Below, one piece after another: positions 47,714-57,380 of a DNA stretch of 57,380 bases. How positions within the stretch are numbered: position 1 is the first letter of the stretch; every line of letters starts with the position of its first letter. The DNA is from Pseudomonadota bacterium (GTDB lineage Bacteria; Pseudomonadota; Alphaproteobacteria; SHVZ01). A program made the position numbers and the translations under genes. Location of the stretch: assembly GCA_016195085.1 (NCBI GenBank), contig JACQAG010000083.1, positions 1-57,380 on the forward strand, read 5' to 3'. Below the pieces are notes generated by a model, which ran no database searches, was not told the DNA's origin, and saw only the letters and a program-made list of their open reading frames with translations.

Positions 47714-48385
47714 ATGGACGCCGAGGCGCCCGCCCGCGACTGCCCGCTCTGTCCGCGCCTCGCGGAGTTCCGCCAAACGCAGCGTCAGCACCACCCCGAC
47801 TGGCACAATGCGCCGGTCGCGTCCTTCGGAGCCGGGACGGCGCGGCTCTTGATCGTCGGGCTCGCCCCGGGCTTGAAGGGCGCCAACCGCACCGGCCGGC
47901 CGTTCACCGGCGACTATGCGGGCGAGCTGCTCTATCCCATGCTGATCCGCCACGGCTTTGCCCGCGGCGACTACGCTGCCAGGCCCGATGACGGACTCGA
48001 GCTCGTCGACTGCCGGATCACCAATGCGGTCCGCTGCGTGCCGCCGGCGAACAAGCCGACCCCGGCGGAAGCCACAATCTGCCGCCGGTTCCTCATCGCC
48101 GAGATGGCGGCGATGCCGCGGCTGGAAGCAGTGCTGGCCTTGGGTGCCATCGCCCATGGCGCGGTGCTGAAGGCCTCGGGCGAGCGGCTGGCCGCGCATC
48201 CCTTCCGCCACGGTGCGCTCTATCGCCTGAAGCGGCCGCACTGGCTCGCCGACAGCTATCATTGCTCGCGCTACAACACCAACACCGGGCGGCTGACCGA
48301 GGCGATGTTCGCCGAGGTGCTGGCGCAGTTAAAGGCCACGCTTGACCGAGCACCGGGGCGCCCGGAGCAATCTGCCATCGAGTAG
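47714..48385 (+). CDS. uracil-DNA glycosylase, family 5 (UDGb), iron-sulfur type
   Basis: 223 residues. Four cysteines fit the 4Fe-4S cluster: C10 and C13 in DCPLCPRLAEFR, C108 in AVRCVPPANKP and C123 in ATICRRF. Motif 1 is GLAPGLKGANRTGRPFTGDY (about 49-68), which in family 5 lacks the aspartate or asparagine of other families. The late motif is DSYHCSRYNTNTGRLT (about 180-195). It removes uracil and related damaged bases from DNA. Its 3' end is copied twice downstream (49061-49172 and about 52322-52476), with foreign-looking genes between the copies. Confidence 0.9.
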   Translation: MDAEAPARDCPLCPRLAEFRQTQRQHHPDWHNAPVASFGAGTARLLIVGLAPGLKGANRTGRPFTGDYAGELLYPMLIRHGFARGDYAARPDDGLELVDCRITNAVRCVPPANKPTPAEATICRRFLIAEMAAMPRLEAVLALGAIAHGAVLKASGERLAAHPFRHGALYRLKRPHWLADSYHCSRYNTNTGRLTEAMFAEVLAQLKATLDRAPGRPEQSAIE

Positions 48386-49060: not shown

Positions 49061-49172
49061 CTCTACGTATTGCCGGAACACCAATACCGGGCGGCTGACC
49101 GAGGCGATGTTCGCGGAGGTGCTGGAGCGGCTACGAAGTACGCTAGGCTCGGAACCCAGGCGCCGTGGATAG
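49061..49172 (+). pseudogene. truncated copy of the udg 3' end (copy 2)
   Basis: In frame, the segment reads STYCRNTNTGRLTEAMFAEV then LERLRSTLGSEPRRRG and a stop (49170-49172). It matches SYHCSRYNTNTGRLTEAMFA in the intact udg product with a three-residue gap. The DNA is nearly identical to 48277-48330 for about 45 bases, then diverges. No N-terminal glycosylase motifs lie upstream. It is a remnant, not a working enzyme. It marks the right border of the Hpt unit and the left border of the ABC importer unit. Confidence 0.8.
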
Positions 49173-52321: not shown

Positions 52322-52476
52322 GAGGCGCGGATCATTGGCCTCGCCTCCGGCCTCAGGAGCGCGGGCTATGGCTCGCCGACGGCGATCCCTACGCGCGCCG
52401 CTTGACCGAAACGATGGTCGCCGATGTGCTGGAGCAGCTCACGGGGACGCTGGGCGCGCACCTACGGCACGCCTGA
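52322..52476 (+). pseudogene. decayed udg copy (copy 3), motif 1 joined to the C-terminus
   Basis: Two glycosylase pieces can be read in different frames. At about 52326-52366, ARIIGLASGLRSAG resembles motif 1 of the udg product (ARLLIVGLAPGLKGA). At 52369-52476, WLADGDPYARRLTETMVADV then LEQLTGTLGAHLRHA and a stop resembles its C-terminus (WLADSYHCSRYN, RLTEAMFAEVLAQLKATL; about 12 of 18 residues equal in the last block). A frameshift and an internal deletion of most of the gene separate them. The fragment ends 48 bases before the tracrRNA hairpin. Confidence 0.62.
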
Positions 52477-52523
52477 GCAAACAGAGAGCTGCCGGTCTCG
52501 CCCGTTGAAGGCTCTTGAGGAAT

Positions 52524-52600
52524 CCCCCTTGGCCTTTCGGCCAAGGGGTAATCCTTCGAGTGGATAAACCACCTTACCGTGGTTTCCCAACCGACTCCCG
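52524..52600 (-). ncRNA. predicted tracrRNA of the type II-C CRISPR system
   Basis: The anti-repeat is at 52577-52599. The plus strand here reads CCGTGGTTTCCC, one changed base, then ACCGACTCCC, matching bases 2-24 of the CRISPR repeat in crRNA sense at 22 of 23 positions. The minus-strand RNA would therefore pair with crRNA along 23 bases with one U-U mismatch. After the anti-repeat come a short stem (52560-52563 with 52569-52572) and a perfect 10-base terminal hairpin (CCCCTTGGCC, 52525-52534; complement 52539-52548; tetraloop GAAA in the RNA). The order anti-repeat, small stem, GC-rich 3' hairpin is that of known tracrRNAs. The length is about 75-80 bases, and transcription runs away from cas9. 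Confidence 0.85.
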
Positions 52601-52606
52601 ACGCAG

Positions 52607-52635
52607 AGATTGCAACCCCTCCTATGCAATGTCAA
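52607..52635 (-). promoter_or_regulatory. predicted promoter of the tracrRNA
   Basis: On the minus strand TTGACA (52635-52630) is followed by a 17-base spacer and CAATCT (52612-52607). A start about 7 bases further on falls near 52600, exactly where the anti-repeat begins. The -35 box is perfect and the -10 box is weak. The agreement between predicted start and anti-repeat edge supports the call. Confidence 0.6.
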
Positions 52636-52669
52636 TAATCGCTGACTTGTGGATAACTCGGCGAATCCG

Positions 52670-55600
52670 ATGGCAACAGCCGCAAACCTTCGAAAAGGCC
52701 TGATCTTAGGCCTCGATCTTGGAATCGGCTCGTGCGGATGGGCCGTCATCGACGAGACGAAGCCTGCGGGCCGCATCATCGACATGGGCGTGCGGACCTT
52801 CGATGTGCCCGAAACCGATAAAGAGCGAACACCGACCAATCAGCTTCGCCGCGAACATCGAGGGCTTAGGAGAGTCATCGGACGCCGACGCCAACGCATG
52901 AACGGGCTGCGGCAACTTTTCCAAGACGCGGGATTGATTGCCGACGACCGCAAGGGCGCGCTCAAGATTCGGGGCCTCGATCCTTGGGCATTGAGAGCGG
53001 ATGGGCTGGAGCGGAAGCTGACCGGACCGGAATTGGCCGTGGCGCTCGGCCACATTGCGAAGCATCGCGGTTTCAAGTCAAACAGCAAGCGCGATCGCGG
53101 CGCGAACGCGCCCAAGGATTCCTCGAAGATGCTGGGCGCGATTGACGCTACGCGCGAGCGTATGAAGACCTACCGCACGGTTGGCGAGATGTTTGCCAAG
53201 GACCCAGCGTACATCGCCCGCAAACACAATCGAGATGGCGACTTCACCCGATCGATTCTCCGCGGCGATCAAGAGCAGGAGGTACGCATCCTGTTCGAAC
53301 GCCAGCGTGCCGCCGGCAATGTCATGGCGACCGCAGAGCTGGAGGCAAGGTTCACCGACGCGGCTTTCTATCAGCGACCCTTGGCCGACAGCGAGGACAA
53401 GGTCGGCGAATGCCCGTTCGAGCCAGGCGAAAAACGGGCGGCGAAGCGATGCTATTCATTTGAGCTATTTCGCTTGCTCTCGCGGCTCGCGGCGGTGCGC
53501 ATTCAATCGTTCTCGGAAGAGCGGGCGTTGACGCCAGAAGAAATCGACGCCGCAAGCAAGGATTTCGGCGCGTTCCGAGGAATGACCTTCAAGCGAATGC
53601 GCAAGCGTATAGAACTACACGAAGAACAGCGCTTTGCCGGTGTCCCGCTCGACGACGAGGGACGACGCGACGTCGTCGCAAGGACCGGCGACATGGCTTC
53701 CGGCACCTATGCGCTCCGGAAGATCCTGGGCAGCGCCTGGAGAACGTTGCTGGCTGCCCCCGGCACGCTCGACCGGATCGCTTTCGTACTCTCCTTTCGC
53801 GAAGACCCGAAGTCGATCCGCGCCGGTCTCGATGAGATCGGTCTCGATCAAGTCATCGTCGACGCCGTGATGAAGGGCGTGGAGGACGGGGACTTCGGCC
53901 AGTTCAGCGGAGCGGGCCATATCTCCGCCAAAGCGTGCCGGAAGCTGATTCCCCATCTCAAGCACGGTCTTGTCTATTCGCGAGCGTGCGAAGAAGTGCC
54001 TGGTTACAATCACGCTGCGCCGCCCGAGGCCGATCCAAGCAAGATTGGCAGTCCCGTTGCCCGCAAGGCGCTGACGGAGGCAATCAAGCAAGTGCGTGCC
54101 GTCATACGCGAGCACGGCTTGCCGGAGCACGTTCACATCGAGCTCGCACGCGACGTCGGGAAGAGCAAGGAAGAGCGCGACGAGATAAGGATCGGCATCG
54201 ACAGGCGCAATAGGGAAAAGGACCGCCTCCGCGAGCATTTCCTGGAAACGGTCGGGAGCGAAGCAACGAGCGGCGAAGACCTCCTCCGCTTCGAGCTCTG
54301 GCGCGAGCAGAACGGCCGTTGCCTCTACACAGACCGGGTAATCCATCCGAACGCCATCGTCGCGTCAGACAACTCGGTGCAGATCGATCACATTCTGCCG
54401 TGGAGCCGCGCTGGCGACGATTCGTTCGTCAACAAAACGCTGTGCCTTGCGAGCGCCAATCAGCAAAAGAAGGGCCGCACACCTTGGGAATGGTTCAAGG
54501 CCGAGCGGACCGATGCCGAGTGGGCGGCCTTCGCCGAGGGCATCGAAACCAACAAAAGCATGAAGGGCCGCAAGAAGCGCAACTACCTTCTCAAGGATTC
54601 GTCGATTCTCGAGGAGAAGTTCCGTCCGCGAAACCTCAACGACACGCGCTACGCTTGCCGTCTCTTGGCCGATGTGGTGGCGCGGATGTACCCAGACGAT
54701 GGGCGGCGTCATGTTCTCGCCCGGCCCGGCCGCTTGACGAGCCTGTTGCGCAGGGGATGGGGCGTCCAAGACTTGAAGAAGGACGCGGATGGCAAACGCG
54801 TCGATGACGACCGCCACCACGCGCTCGACGCGCTCGTCGTCGCAGCGACGACGGAGGGCGAACTGCAAGAGCTGACTCGCGCGTTTCAGGAAGCGGAAAA
54901 GCTCGGCGCGCATCGCGACTTCAAAAGGCTTGATCCGCCATGGCTCGGTTTTGCAGCGGAGGCAAGAGCGAAGCTCGACGCCGTCTTCGTCTCGCGGGCC
55001 GAGCGACGGCGCGCACGCGGAGAAGCGCATGGCGCAACCATCCGTCAGATCGTCGAGACCGATGGAAAGCATATCGTCTATGAGCGCAAAAGCGTCGACG
55101 CGGTGACGGAAAGCGATCTGGCGCGAATCAAGGATGCCGAGAGAAACGCCAAGCTGGTCGGAGCGCTCCGGGAATGGATCGCGGCCGGCAAGCCGAAAGA
55201 CCGGCGCCCGCTGTCTCCAAAGGGAGATCCCATCGCGAAGGTTCGACTGCGGACCAACAAGAAGGCTGACGTCCTCATACGCAGTGGCGTTGCCGATCGG
55301 GGGGAAATGGTGCGCGTCGATGTCTTCCGAAAGAAGAACCGGAGGAATTTGTGGGAGTATTTTTTTGTTCCGGTCTACCCGCATCAGGTGGCCAACGCAA
55401 TGGATTGGCCGACGCCGCCAAACAAGGCCGTGCAGGGTAACACGCCGGAAGAGCTGTGGCCCGACGTGGACGAGACCTACGAGTTTCGCTGGAGCCTCTA
55501 TCCGCTGAGCTTCGTTGAGCTGATAAAGTCCGACGGCGAAGTGATCGAGGGTTACCTGCGAGGTGTCAACCGCAACACGGGAGCATTGGCGGTCTCTCCC

Positions 55601-55741
55601 CATCACACCAAACAGGAGGTTCGAGACGGTATTGGCGGTAGGACGCTCAAGGATTTACGCAAGTTCACCGTTGATCGCCTCGGTCGCCGCTTCGAGATTG
55701 CGCGGGAGATCCGCACATGGCATGGCGCGGCCTGCACGTAA
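52670..55741 (+). CDS. cas9: Cas9 endonuclease, type II-C
   Basis: 1023 residues from ATG 52670; a GTG at 52649 adds 7. Neither has a clear ribosome site. Positions are counted from the ATG. RuvC-I is LILGLDLGIGSCGWAVID with D16. The arginine-rich bridge helix (HRGLRRVIGRRRQRMNGLRQ) spans about 63-82. RuvC-II is HVHIELARD with E491. The HNH nuclease is SVQIDHILPWSRAGDDSFVN (H574), then CLASANQQKKGRTPWEW with N597. RuvC-III is DDDRHHALDALVVA with H717 and D720. All catalytic residues are present, so both DNA strands should be cut. The C-terminal 200 residues form the wedge and PAM-reading region (YFFVPVYPHQVANAMDW). Size and the absence of csn2 or cas4 fit subtype II-C. Confidence 0.96.
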   Translation: MATAANLRKGLILGLDLGIGSCGWAVIDETKPAGRIIDMGVRTFDVPETDKERTPTNQLRREHRGLRRVIGRRRQRMNGLRQLFQDAGLIADDRKGALKIRGLDPWALRADGLERKLTGPELAVALGHIAKHRGFKSNSKRDRGANAPKDSSKMLGAIDATRERMKTYRTVGEMFAKDPAYIARKHNRDGDFTRSILRGDQEQEVRILFERQRAAGNVMATAELEARFTDAAFYQRPLADSEDKVGECPFEPGEKRAAKRCYSFELFRLLSRLAAVRIQSFSEERALTPEEIDAASKDFGAFRGMTFKRMRKRIELHEEQRFAGVPLDDEGRRDVVARTGDMASGTYALRKILGSAWRTLLAAPGTLDRIAFVLSFREDPKSIRAGLDEIGLDQVIVDAVMKGVEDGDFGQFSGAGHISAKACRKLIPHLKHGLVYSRACEEVPGYNHAAPPEADPSKIGSPVARKALTEAIKQVRAVIREHGLPEHVHIELARDVGKSKEERDEIRIGIDRRNREKDRLREHFLETVGSEATSGEDLLRFELWREQNGRCLYTDRVIHPNAIVASDNSVQIDHILPWSRAGDDSFVNKTLCLASANQQKKGRTPWEWFKAERTDAEWAAFAEGIETNKSMKGRKKRNYLLKDSSILEEKFRPRNLNDTRYACRLLADVVARMYPDDGRRHVLARPGRLTSLLRRGWGVQDLKKDADGKRVDDDRHHALDALVVAATTEGELQELTRAFQEAEKLGAHRDFKRLDPPWLGFAAEARAKLDAVFVSRAERRRARGEAHGATIRQIVETDGKHIVYERKSVDAVTESDLARIKDAERNAKLVGALREWIAAGKPKDRRPLSPKGDPIAKVRLRTNKKADVLIRSGVADRGEMVRVDVFRKKNRRNLWEYFFVPVYPHQVANAMDWPTPPNKAVQGNTPEELWPDVDETYEFRWSLYPLSFVELIKSDGEVIEGYLRGVNRNTGALAVSPHHTKQEVRDGIGGRTLKDLRKFTVDRLGRRFEIAREIRTWHGAACT

Positions 55742-56616
55742 CGAAGCCGTCGCGGCTGGCTTTGGCCGACGGACAAGTGACGATCGCCCAAGACGATGGG
55801 GACGTGCGCGTCCCGCTCGAAGATCTTGCCTGGATCGTCCTCGATACGCCGCAATCTACTTTGACCGGAAGCTTGCTTTCCGCGTGCATGTCGGCGGGCA
55901 TTGCATTGATCGCGACCGACGAGACTCACACGCCGTCCGGCGTCCTGCTACCCTTTCACCGGCATTTCCGTCAGGGTGAGATCGCGCATCGGCAGGCGGC
56001 TATAGGCGCGCCCCTGAAGAAGCGGCTCTGGCGAAGGATCGTGCGCGCCAAAATCGAAAATCAGGCGGAAGCGCTCCACGTCGCCCACCGCGGCGGCGCG
56101 CGCACGCTTCGGGAAATGGCGCATCTCGTCGGGTCCGGCGACCCGCGCAACGTCGAGGCAAGGGCAGCCAGGTATTATTGGACGCAGCTATGGCCCGAGT
56201 TCCGCCGCGAGGATGGCGGGGATAAGCGGAACAAGCTGCTGAATTACGGCTACGCCGTTGTTCGGGCCGGCGTTGCTCGCTCGCTCGTGGCTGCGGGCCT
56301 GCTTCCGGCCTTCGGCCTCAACCATGCGAGCGTCACGAACGCCTTCAATCTCGCAGACGACATCGTCGAGCCGTTTCGGCCCTTCGTCGACTCCCTGGCG
56401 TGGAAGACGGCGGATGCGGGCCGGCCGTCGCGTGACGACCTCACAATCGACGACCGGCGCGCCATGGCGGGCGTTCTTCTCGCCGAAGCCAAGATGTCGG
56501 ACGAAACCGTGACGTTGCTCGTGGCCGCCGAGAGGACGGCGGAATCGCTGGTGCGTGCGATGGAGGGCTCGACGGCTGATATTCTCGAGCTCCCGGCTTT
56601 TGCTTCTCGAGCGTGA
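55717..56616 (+). CDS. cas1: CRISPR-associated integrase Cas1
   Basis: 299 residues. The metal-binding residues are E147 in GDPRNVEARAARYYWTQLW, H203 in AFGLNHASVTNAFNLADD, and D215/E218 in ADDIVEPFRPFVD. The type II Cas1 start TKPSRLALADGQVTIAQDD is recognisable. Together with Cas2 it inserts new spacers into the array. The gene overlaps the cas9 end by 25 bases, implying one transcript and coupled translation. Confidence 0.95.
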   Translation: MAWRGLHVTKPSRLALADGQVTIAQDDGDVRVPLEDLAWIVLDTPQSTLTGSLLSACMSAGIALIATDETHTPSGVLLPFHRHFRQGEIAHRQAAIGAPLKKRLWRRIVRAKIENQAEALHVAHRGGARTLREMAHLVGSGDPRNVEARAARYYWTQLWPEFRREDGGDKRNKLLNYGYAVVRAGVARSLVAAGLLPAFGLNHASVTNAFNLADDIVEPFRPFVDSLAWKTADAGRPSRDDLTIDDRRAMAGVLLAEAKMSDETVTLLVAAERTAESLVRAMEGSTADILELPAFASRA

Positions 56617-56625
56617 GCGCTTTTG

Positions 56626-56955
56626 ATGAAAGTCGAAGAGGTCCGCATCTTGTGGATGTTCGTTTTCTTCGATTTGCCGGTCGGGACCAAGGGCGAGCGG
56701 CGCGCCGCGACGCGTTTCCGCAATTTTCTGAAGGACGACGGTTATATGATGCTGCAATGGTCGGTATATGCGCGCGTGTGCCGCGGCGAGGAGGCGGCCG
56801 AGAAGCACGTTCAGCGCGTCACCAAGAATTTGCCGGGAAAAGGCAGCGTGCGAGCCCTGCAAGTGACCGATAAGCAATACGGTCGGATGCGACTGTTGCT
56901 CGGAGAGATGACGAAAAATGAGAGAGTCGCCCCTCAGCAGATGGTCCTGCTCTGA
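56626..56955 (+). CDS. cas2: CRISPR-associated protein Cas2
   Basis: 109 residues from ATG 56626. The ferredoxin-like fold starts RILWMFVFFDLPVGTKGERR with the conserved aspartate D16, then FRNFLKDDGYMMLQWSVYAR and RALQVTDKQYGRMRLLLG. It is the structural partner of Cas1 in spacer integration. It follows cas1 by 9 bases. Only this three-gene set (cas9, cas1, cas2) is present. Confidence 0.94.
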   Translation: MKVEEVRILWMFVFFDLPVGTKGERRAATRFRNFLKDDGYMMLQWSVYARVCRGEEAAEKHVQRVTKNLPGKGSVRALQVTDKQYGRMRLLLGEMTKNERVAPQQMVLL

Positions 56956-56987
56956 TTTCGGCCTCGGTAAGAAGGCAAAAATCAGAG
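56950..56987. terminator. hairpin between cas2 and the array, possible bidirectional terminator
   Basis: CTCTGATTT (56950-56958) and AAATCAGAG (56979-56987) are perfect 9-base arms around a 20-base loop; the cas2 stop codon lies in the left arm. It separates the rightward cas transcript from the leftward array transcript inferred from the anti-repeat. No strong U-tract follows on either strand, so termination is only plausible. Confidence 0.45.
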
Positions 56988-57013
56988 CATTTCCAATAGC
57001 TTCGATCGCTGGG

Positions 57014-57379
57014 AGCCTACCGGATGGGAGTCGGTAGGGAAACCACGGCGCGGGGGTCCCTTGAGCCGTACAGATAGGCAGCCTACCGGATGGGAGTCGG
57101 TAGGGAAACCACGGCAGCTTGGATCGCGCCTCGACAGGAGACAGCAGCCTACCGGATGGGAGTCGGTAGGGAAACCACGGCGAAAATGCATCGACCTGGA
57201 AGGGGCGACGGAGCCTACCGGATGGGAGTCGGTAGGGAAACCACGGCCGGCAATTACGATGTCGTCGGGATGCGGGCAGCCTACCGGATGGGAGTCGGTA
57301 GGGAAACCACGGCGAACTGCGTCCCGGTGTTTATCGCCAGACGAGCCTACCGGATGGGAGTCGGTAGGGAAACCACGGC
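57014..57379 (-). CRISPR. CRISPR array, six 36-base repeats seen, continues beyond the window
   Basis: Identical repeats start at 57014, 57080, 57146, 57212, 57278 and 57344. Each is 36 bases, and all five complete spacers are exactly 30 bases, typical of II-C. In crRNA sense (minus strand) the repeat begins GCCGTGGTTTCCCTACCGAC and ends CCGGTAGGCT. Its first 24 bases carry the anti-repeat match, so crRNA reads leftward, toward cas2. The last base of the window (57380) begins another spacer, so the array and its leader end lie to the right. All six repeats are identical, with no decayed terminal repeat. Confidence 0.97.
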
Positions 57380-57380
57380 C

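Follow-up and report, generated by a model that had tools for sequence, protein, structure and literature searches.

In type II-C CRISPR-Cas systems the array is described as running opposite to the cas operon, and the direction of the tracrRNA gene varies (PMC3936727). As this arrangement of the array is the norm in the published account, a tracrRNA gene opposite to cas9 is not unusual. The EH CRISPR-Cas9 system is a metagenomic member of type II-C clade IX, with its nearest Cas9 homologues in Alphaproteobacteria. According to its published description its tracrRNA lies upstream of cas9 and the system works in E. coli (PMC10281378).

We analysed a contig stretch of 57,380 nucleotides (the window) that carries a type II-C locus at its end. 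The EH system resembles this locus in its cas9-cas1-cas2 order, its 36-nt repeats and an array at a contig end, and its tracrRNA of ~100 bp has its own promoter and two stem-loops after the anti-repeat, as predicted for the window; this likeness is one of published description, and the NGG-type PAM of the EH system is not transferable to the window. The type II-C locus of Tistrella mobilis (NC_017958.1; L029) encodes a Cas9 about 50% identical to that of the window and has the same repeat type and a divergent tracrRNA gene with the same elements. It differs in its longer nexus, in the sequence of its terminal stem and in having no DnaA-box-like site. The best solved-structure matches of the window Cas9 are full-length Cas9 chains, which we take to be of the Neisseria type (Neisseria meningitidis / Pasteurella multocida type II-C). 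The window tracrRNA presumably resembles the tracrRNAs of these two species as well.

The type II-C locus

The features of the locus are listed in Table 1. Cas9 contains HNH and RuvC nuclease domains (TIGR01865, 613.5 bits; PF13395; PF18541), and Cas9, Cas1 and Cas2 are intact as judged by family match. The locus has cas9, cas1 and cas2 without csn2 or cas4, as expected of type II-C. The minus-strand element upstream of cas9 is very probably, on the comparisons below, the tracrRNA gene of a complete type II-C locus (cas9-cas1-cas2-array).

Table 1. Features of the CRISPR-Cas9 locus and its surroundings (window positions, except where L008 is named)
Feature	Position	Strand	Remarks
UDG-related stretches	47714-48385, 49077-49128, 52369-52451; L008 402-545, 1313-1363		
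Predicted tracrRNA	52512-52600	-	~83-89 nt; 5' end ~52600, 3' end ~52512-52518
Outer helix AGGA/UCCU	52518-52555	-	around terminal hairpin, with 3x3 internal loop
Terminal hairpin	52525-52548	-	10 perfect pairs, GAAA loop: CCCCTTGGCC-GAAA-GGCCAAGGGG
Nexus hairpin	52559-52573	-	GGUGG-UUUAU-CCACU; two-sided changes in 4/4 modelled pairs
Anti-repeat	52577-52599	-	22/23 complementary to CRISPR repeat; one U-U mismatch
tracrRNA -10 region CAATCT	52607-52612	-	weak TATAAT match; position conserved
tracrRNA -35 TTGACA	52630-52635	-	TTGAC in 10/12 loci, TTGC in 2
Candidate cas9 promoter TTGCAA-18-AATAAT	52610-52639	+	over tracrRNA promoter, opposite strand
DnaA-box-like 9-mer TTATCCACA	52648-52656	-	common to two closest relatives
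cas9	52670-55741	+	1023 aa from ATG; in-frame GTG at 52649 possible
cas1, type II	55717-56616	+	family model match
cas2	56626-56955	+	family model match
Hairpin GCTCTGATTT...AAATCAGAGC	56949-56988		between cas2 and array; overlaps cas2 stop
CRISPR array	57014-57380	-	36-nt repeats, 30-nt spacers; six repeats to contig end

The predicted tracrRNA element

On the minus strand a promoter (TTGACA-17-CAATCT, 52635-52607), the anti-repeat, the nexus hairpin and the GAAA-capped stem follow one another in this order. The anti-repeat can pair with the 5' portion of the repeat in the crRNA, and structurally conserved hairpins lie 3' of it. The element lies inside the CRISPR-cas locus and outside the array, and a promoter is predicted upstream, with a -35 conserved at one offset and a weak -10. 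An Rfam search of the window gave no match at the gathering score.

An earlier note on this DNA had proposed a tracrRNA gene here, with a 23-base anti-repeat carrying one mismatch and a perfect 10-base GAAA-capped stem, all ordered on one strand. Every one of these elements was found in its place, and 11 alphaproteobacterial relatives share the strand, the order, the cas9-side position and the hairpins, in which compensatory changes occur. The expected start, at ~52600, is one base from the anti-repeat edge at 52599. The proposed promoter stands as regards its elements, their spacing and the conserved -35; its -10 is less convincing. CAATCT matches TATAAT at only 2/6 positions, and for this reason the minus-strand promoter was missed by a consensus promoter scan. 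The same scan found no terminator with a T-run.

The 3' end proposed by the earlier note, near 52524, has to be revised. It would cut off the conserved outer helix (52555-52552 paired with 52521-52518), which that note overlooked. This helix encloses the terminal stem, so the 3' end should lie no earlier than 52518. As regards a Rho-independent terminator, the stem is conserved, yet no U-tract follows the hairpin in the window. Runs of at least four T follow the outer helix in five relatives (L010, L011, L014, L015 and L030) and are missing from the window, so termination in the window is uncertain, and the claim that the guide architecture is readable without experiments was too strong.

Folding and pairing

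The local match between repeat and anti-repeat has a score of 21; the best of 30 shuffles of the 13-kb segment reached 14. Their predicted duplex has an energy of -44.8 kcal/mol, compared with a mean of -16.0 for 1000 shuffles. Counting shared 11-mers as a test for the anti-repeat gave no significant result (two observed; up to four in 50 resamples). The minus strand at 52512-52599 folds at -46.3 kcal/mol (z = -6.3), and none of 200 shuffles was equally low.

Co-folding of the repeat with the tracrRNA, a check proposed in advance, gave the canonical arrangement at -81.7 kcal/mol, in which the duplex, the nexus and the terminal hairpin all form. The duplex is almost continuous, with a single U-U mismatch, and is followed by the nexus and terminal hairpins. 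The sequence, the conserved architecture, the compensatory changes and this predicted duplex are established in the present analysis.

Conservation among relatives

Relatives of the Cas9 protein were collected from genome contigs (10 loci), from plasmids (seven records, one used) and from 385 genomes of the class, eight of which have a match, the genome of the window included. In the closest lineage no relatives beyond the two already known were found. Seventeen loci, counting the window, were tested for an anti-repeat. In 12 of these it lies on the strand opposite to cas9 and scores above every shuffle; L034 and L035 are the only alphaproteobacterial loci tested that are not among these 12, and for two of the 12 (L013 and L015) the repeat was borrowed from the window. 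In the three clostridial loci (L016-L018) the orientation of the anti-repeat to cas9 is reversed. L034 and L035, where no array was found and the window's repeat served as the stand-in query, gave no anti-repeat in this test. Their Cas9 identities are 43% and 34%, and L034 later gave a weak covariance model match of 28.4 bits beside cas9. L019, a 39% fragment with no array found, was outside both the test and the comparison below, from which L016-L018, L034 and L035 were also excluded; L022 is the Tistrella locus again.

The window and its 11 alphaproteobacterial relatives agree in the tracrRNA elements and in the strand on which these lie. These 12 loci hold 11 distinct sequences, because the tracrRNA stretches of L029 and L031 are identical. 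The anti-repeat and the mapped start of the cas9 match are 60-134 nt apart, and 10 of the 12 loci share TTGAC at one offset. Single-sequence folds of all 12 contain the nexus hairpin and a terminal hairpin enclosed by further pairs.

Alignment A1 comprised 11 of the compared sequences and A2, the covariance model, nine. Over the 11 distinct sequences 98.3% of 173 cells are paired and 13 of 16 pairs show two-sided changes, in an alignment that was fitted to the model with the tested structure and so favours that structure. None of 500 shuffles matched the real alignment on any of five measures, and pairing falls to 49-66% when the structure is slid. Unconstrained single folds with the anti-repeat left off agree with the alignment-based structure. 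In the 4.8-Mb genome the covariance model gave one full-length match, and the only other match reported was the array end on contig C31. Among the 385 genomes of the class full-length matches were found in six, always beside cas9; four of the six had supplied training sequences, so that only two, of Tistrella type, are independent. Weaker matches in three of the six are array repeats.

Strand and alternative readings

Seven G-U cells among the 11 distinct sequences favour the minus strand as the RNA, as do GNRA or UUCG loops in 9 of the 12 loci. Together with the order from anti-repeat to hairpins and the conserved -35, these sequence features favour transcription from the minus strand. It is highly improbable that the tracrRNA is instead read from the plus strand into cas9, with the array also read from the plus strand. 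The duplex would be equally stable in that case (-45.0 kcal/mol), the plus strand also folds below its shuffles (z -5.7) and the three clostridial relatives tested do show the reversed orientation. In type II systems, however, the anti-repeat must pair with the 5' part of the repeat, which in the crRNA sense starts GCCGTGGTTTCCC; an anti-repeat on the plus strand would pair with the 3' part. It would also precede the cas9 promoter and not the hairpins, the conserved hairpins would come first, and G-U cells, GNRA loops and -35 fit the minus strand only. This candidate was rejected on element order, loops and G-U pairs.

The lack of a U-tract in the window, the weak -10 and a free RNA that is predicted to sequester its anti-repeat would fit a decayed remnant, in which the anti-repeat is a relic and the hairpin serves only as a terminator. 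The chance of this is very small, as the anti-repeat still pairs at 22/23 positions with an array of six repeats, cas9, cas1 and cas2 are intact, and paired changes occur in the nexus and terminal stem among relatives. The predicted sequestration is also the basis for a further reading, in which the tracrRNA would have an extra regulatory role, with a closed form (anti-repeat paired to nexus) that opens on meeting the crRNA. This closed form is the predicted minimum-energy fold of the free tracrRNA (-46.3) and is also picked by the alignment consensus fold. Against it, no sequence has a two-sided change in the anti-repeat/nexus pairs and several sequences break them, and separate constraints on anti-repeat and nexus suffice for their complementarity. 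The closed fold is a weak rival only, because its pairs lack two-sided changes, and we regard such a role as unlikely. The element is almost certainly a tracrRNA gene, as in the relatives, and an ordinary part of the type II-C CRISPR-Cas9 system.

The start region

TTGCAA-18-AATAAT, the candidate cas9 promoter, is the sole promoter reported by the consensus scan. Just beyond its candidate start site lies the 9-mer TTATCCACA, which we take to be a perfect "DnaA-box-like" site. Only three blocks of at least 6 bases, ATTGCA, GTCAATAAT and TGTGGATAAC, are common to the intergenic segments of the window and of L030 and L033, its two closest relatives. The former two are the ends of the tracrRNA promoter in the opposite-strand reading, and in the window they also make up TTGCAA-18-AATAAT, directed towards cas9; TGTGGATAAC is the DnaA-box-like site. 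Both the candidate cas9 promoter and the 9-mer recur in L030 and L033. The 9-mer lies 12 nt from the -35 in the window, 7 nt in L030 and 9 nt in L033; in L033 it holds an in-frame stop, so it cannot be coding for Cas9 there.

The 9-mer was not found in the other nine of the 12 loci, and TTATCCACA is not enriched in the 4.8-Mb genome (10 sites, versus 14 for the reversed control). Its other nine sites show no regulon pattern among the genes partly identified round six of them. The predicted tracrRNA and candidate cas9 promoters lie in the same 30 bp on opposite strands, so a polymerase might serve only one of them at once. DnaA bound at 52648-52656 might tip the balance and, in this small lineage, couple CRISPR-Cas9 expression to the replication cycle; the odds are well against this reading as a whole. 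The overlapping promoters with the DnaA-box-like site are new, and as a putative control region they are an unproven lead and not a result.

The array and its surroundings

The crRNA sense of the array would be the minus strand. The array runs on into contig C31, where the first 166 bases include three further repeats, the first of them truncated at the contig end, together with one new spacer and a repeat occurrence of spacer 2. The same spacer is found in L008 (101-130) and in the window (57116-57145), through either a real duplication or an artefact of assembly. In an exact scan of viral contigs with 20 bases per spacer, namely those adjoining the following repeat in the crRNA, none of six spacers found a target.

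The hairpin at the cas2 stop has counterparts in relatives, with a different sequence in L032, and is perhaps a terminator facing both ways. The outermost repeat is followed at a distance of 0-3 nt by another hairpin, perfect or near-perfect and of ~20 bp (L008 166-210, L046 and L047). It is present in this genome and two relatives, with a different sequence in each. A leader promoter would not fit in on that side, and the repeats may have promoters within them. The outermost repeats at the outer array ends of L031 and L032 deviate from the consensus, which suggests spacer acquisition at the cas2 side, even though the crRNAs read towards cas2. In a close relative (L025 and L028, G092:C104) the Cas9 match falls into two overlapping stretches in different frames, suggesting a frameshift.

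The window carries a uracil-DNA glycosylase (UDG) gene and contig C31 carries smpB. Among the six other family genomes, smpB directly adjoins the UDG 3' end in three, is ~1.3 kb off in a fourth, and does not occur within the 1.5 kb examined in the remaining two. This adjacency is an independent reason to consider the window and C31 neighbours. Of three proteins tested beyond the array, one is SmpB and two form a toxin-antitoxin pair of RelE/ParE type, which lies at L008 628-1232, just past the array and before smpB. Pieces of the UDG 3' end recur in the interval from the UDG gene to smpB, on either side of the CRISPR-Cas locus. Since smpB abuts the UDG gene in three of the six genomes, the CRISPR-Cas, ABC-transporter and toxin-antitoxin genes appear to have been inserted at a single hotspot.

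Proposed mechanism and significance

By extrapolation from known type II systems, RNA polymerase would start at ~52600 on the minus strand and yield an RNA of ~85 nt. The first 23 nt of this tracrRNA would form a duplex with nt 1-24 of every repeat of the pre-crRNA, likewise read from the minus strand. Host RNase III would cleave the repeat:anti-repeat duplex, Cas9 would bind the RNA at the nexus and at the double-stemmed terminal hairpin, and the dual guide so formed would direct Cas9 to cleave DNA.

A literature search found no paper on CRISPR-Cas9 expression tied to chromosome replication. If the promoter overlap and the DnaA-box-like site are functional, they would provide such a link. The kind of tracrRNA predicted here is known; what is new is another alphaproteobacterial member, well supported by comparison. 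It completes a type II-C system, with a Cas9 of 1023 aa, its repeat and its predicted tracrRNA, in a sparsely sampled alphaproteobacterial lineage (seven genomes of its order in the collection used), and the predicted guide design is directly testable.
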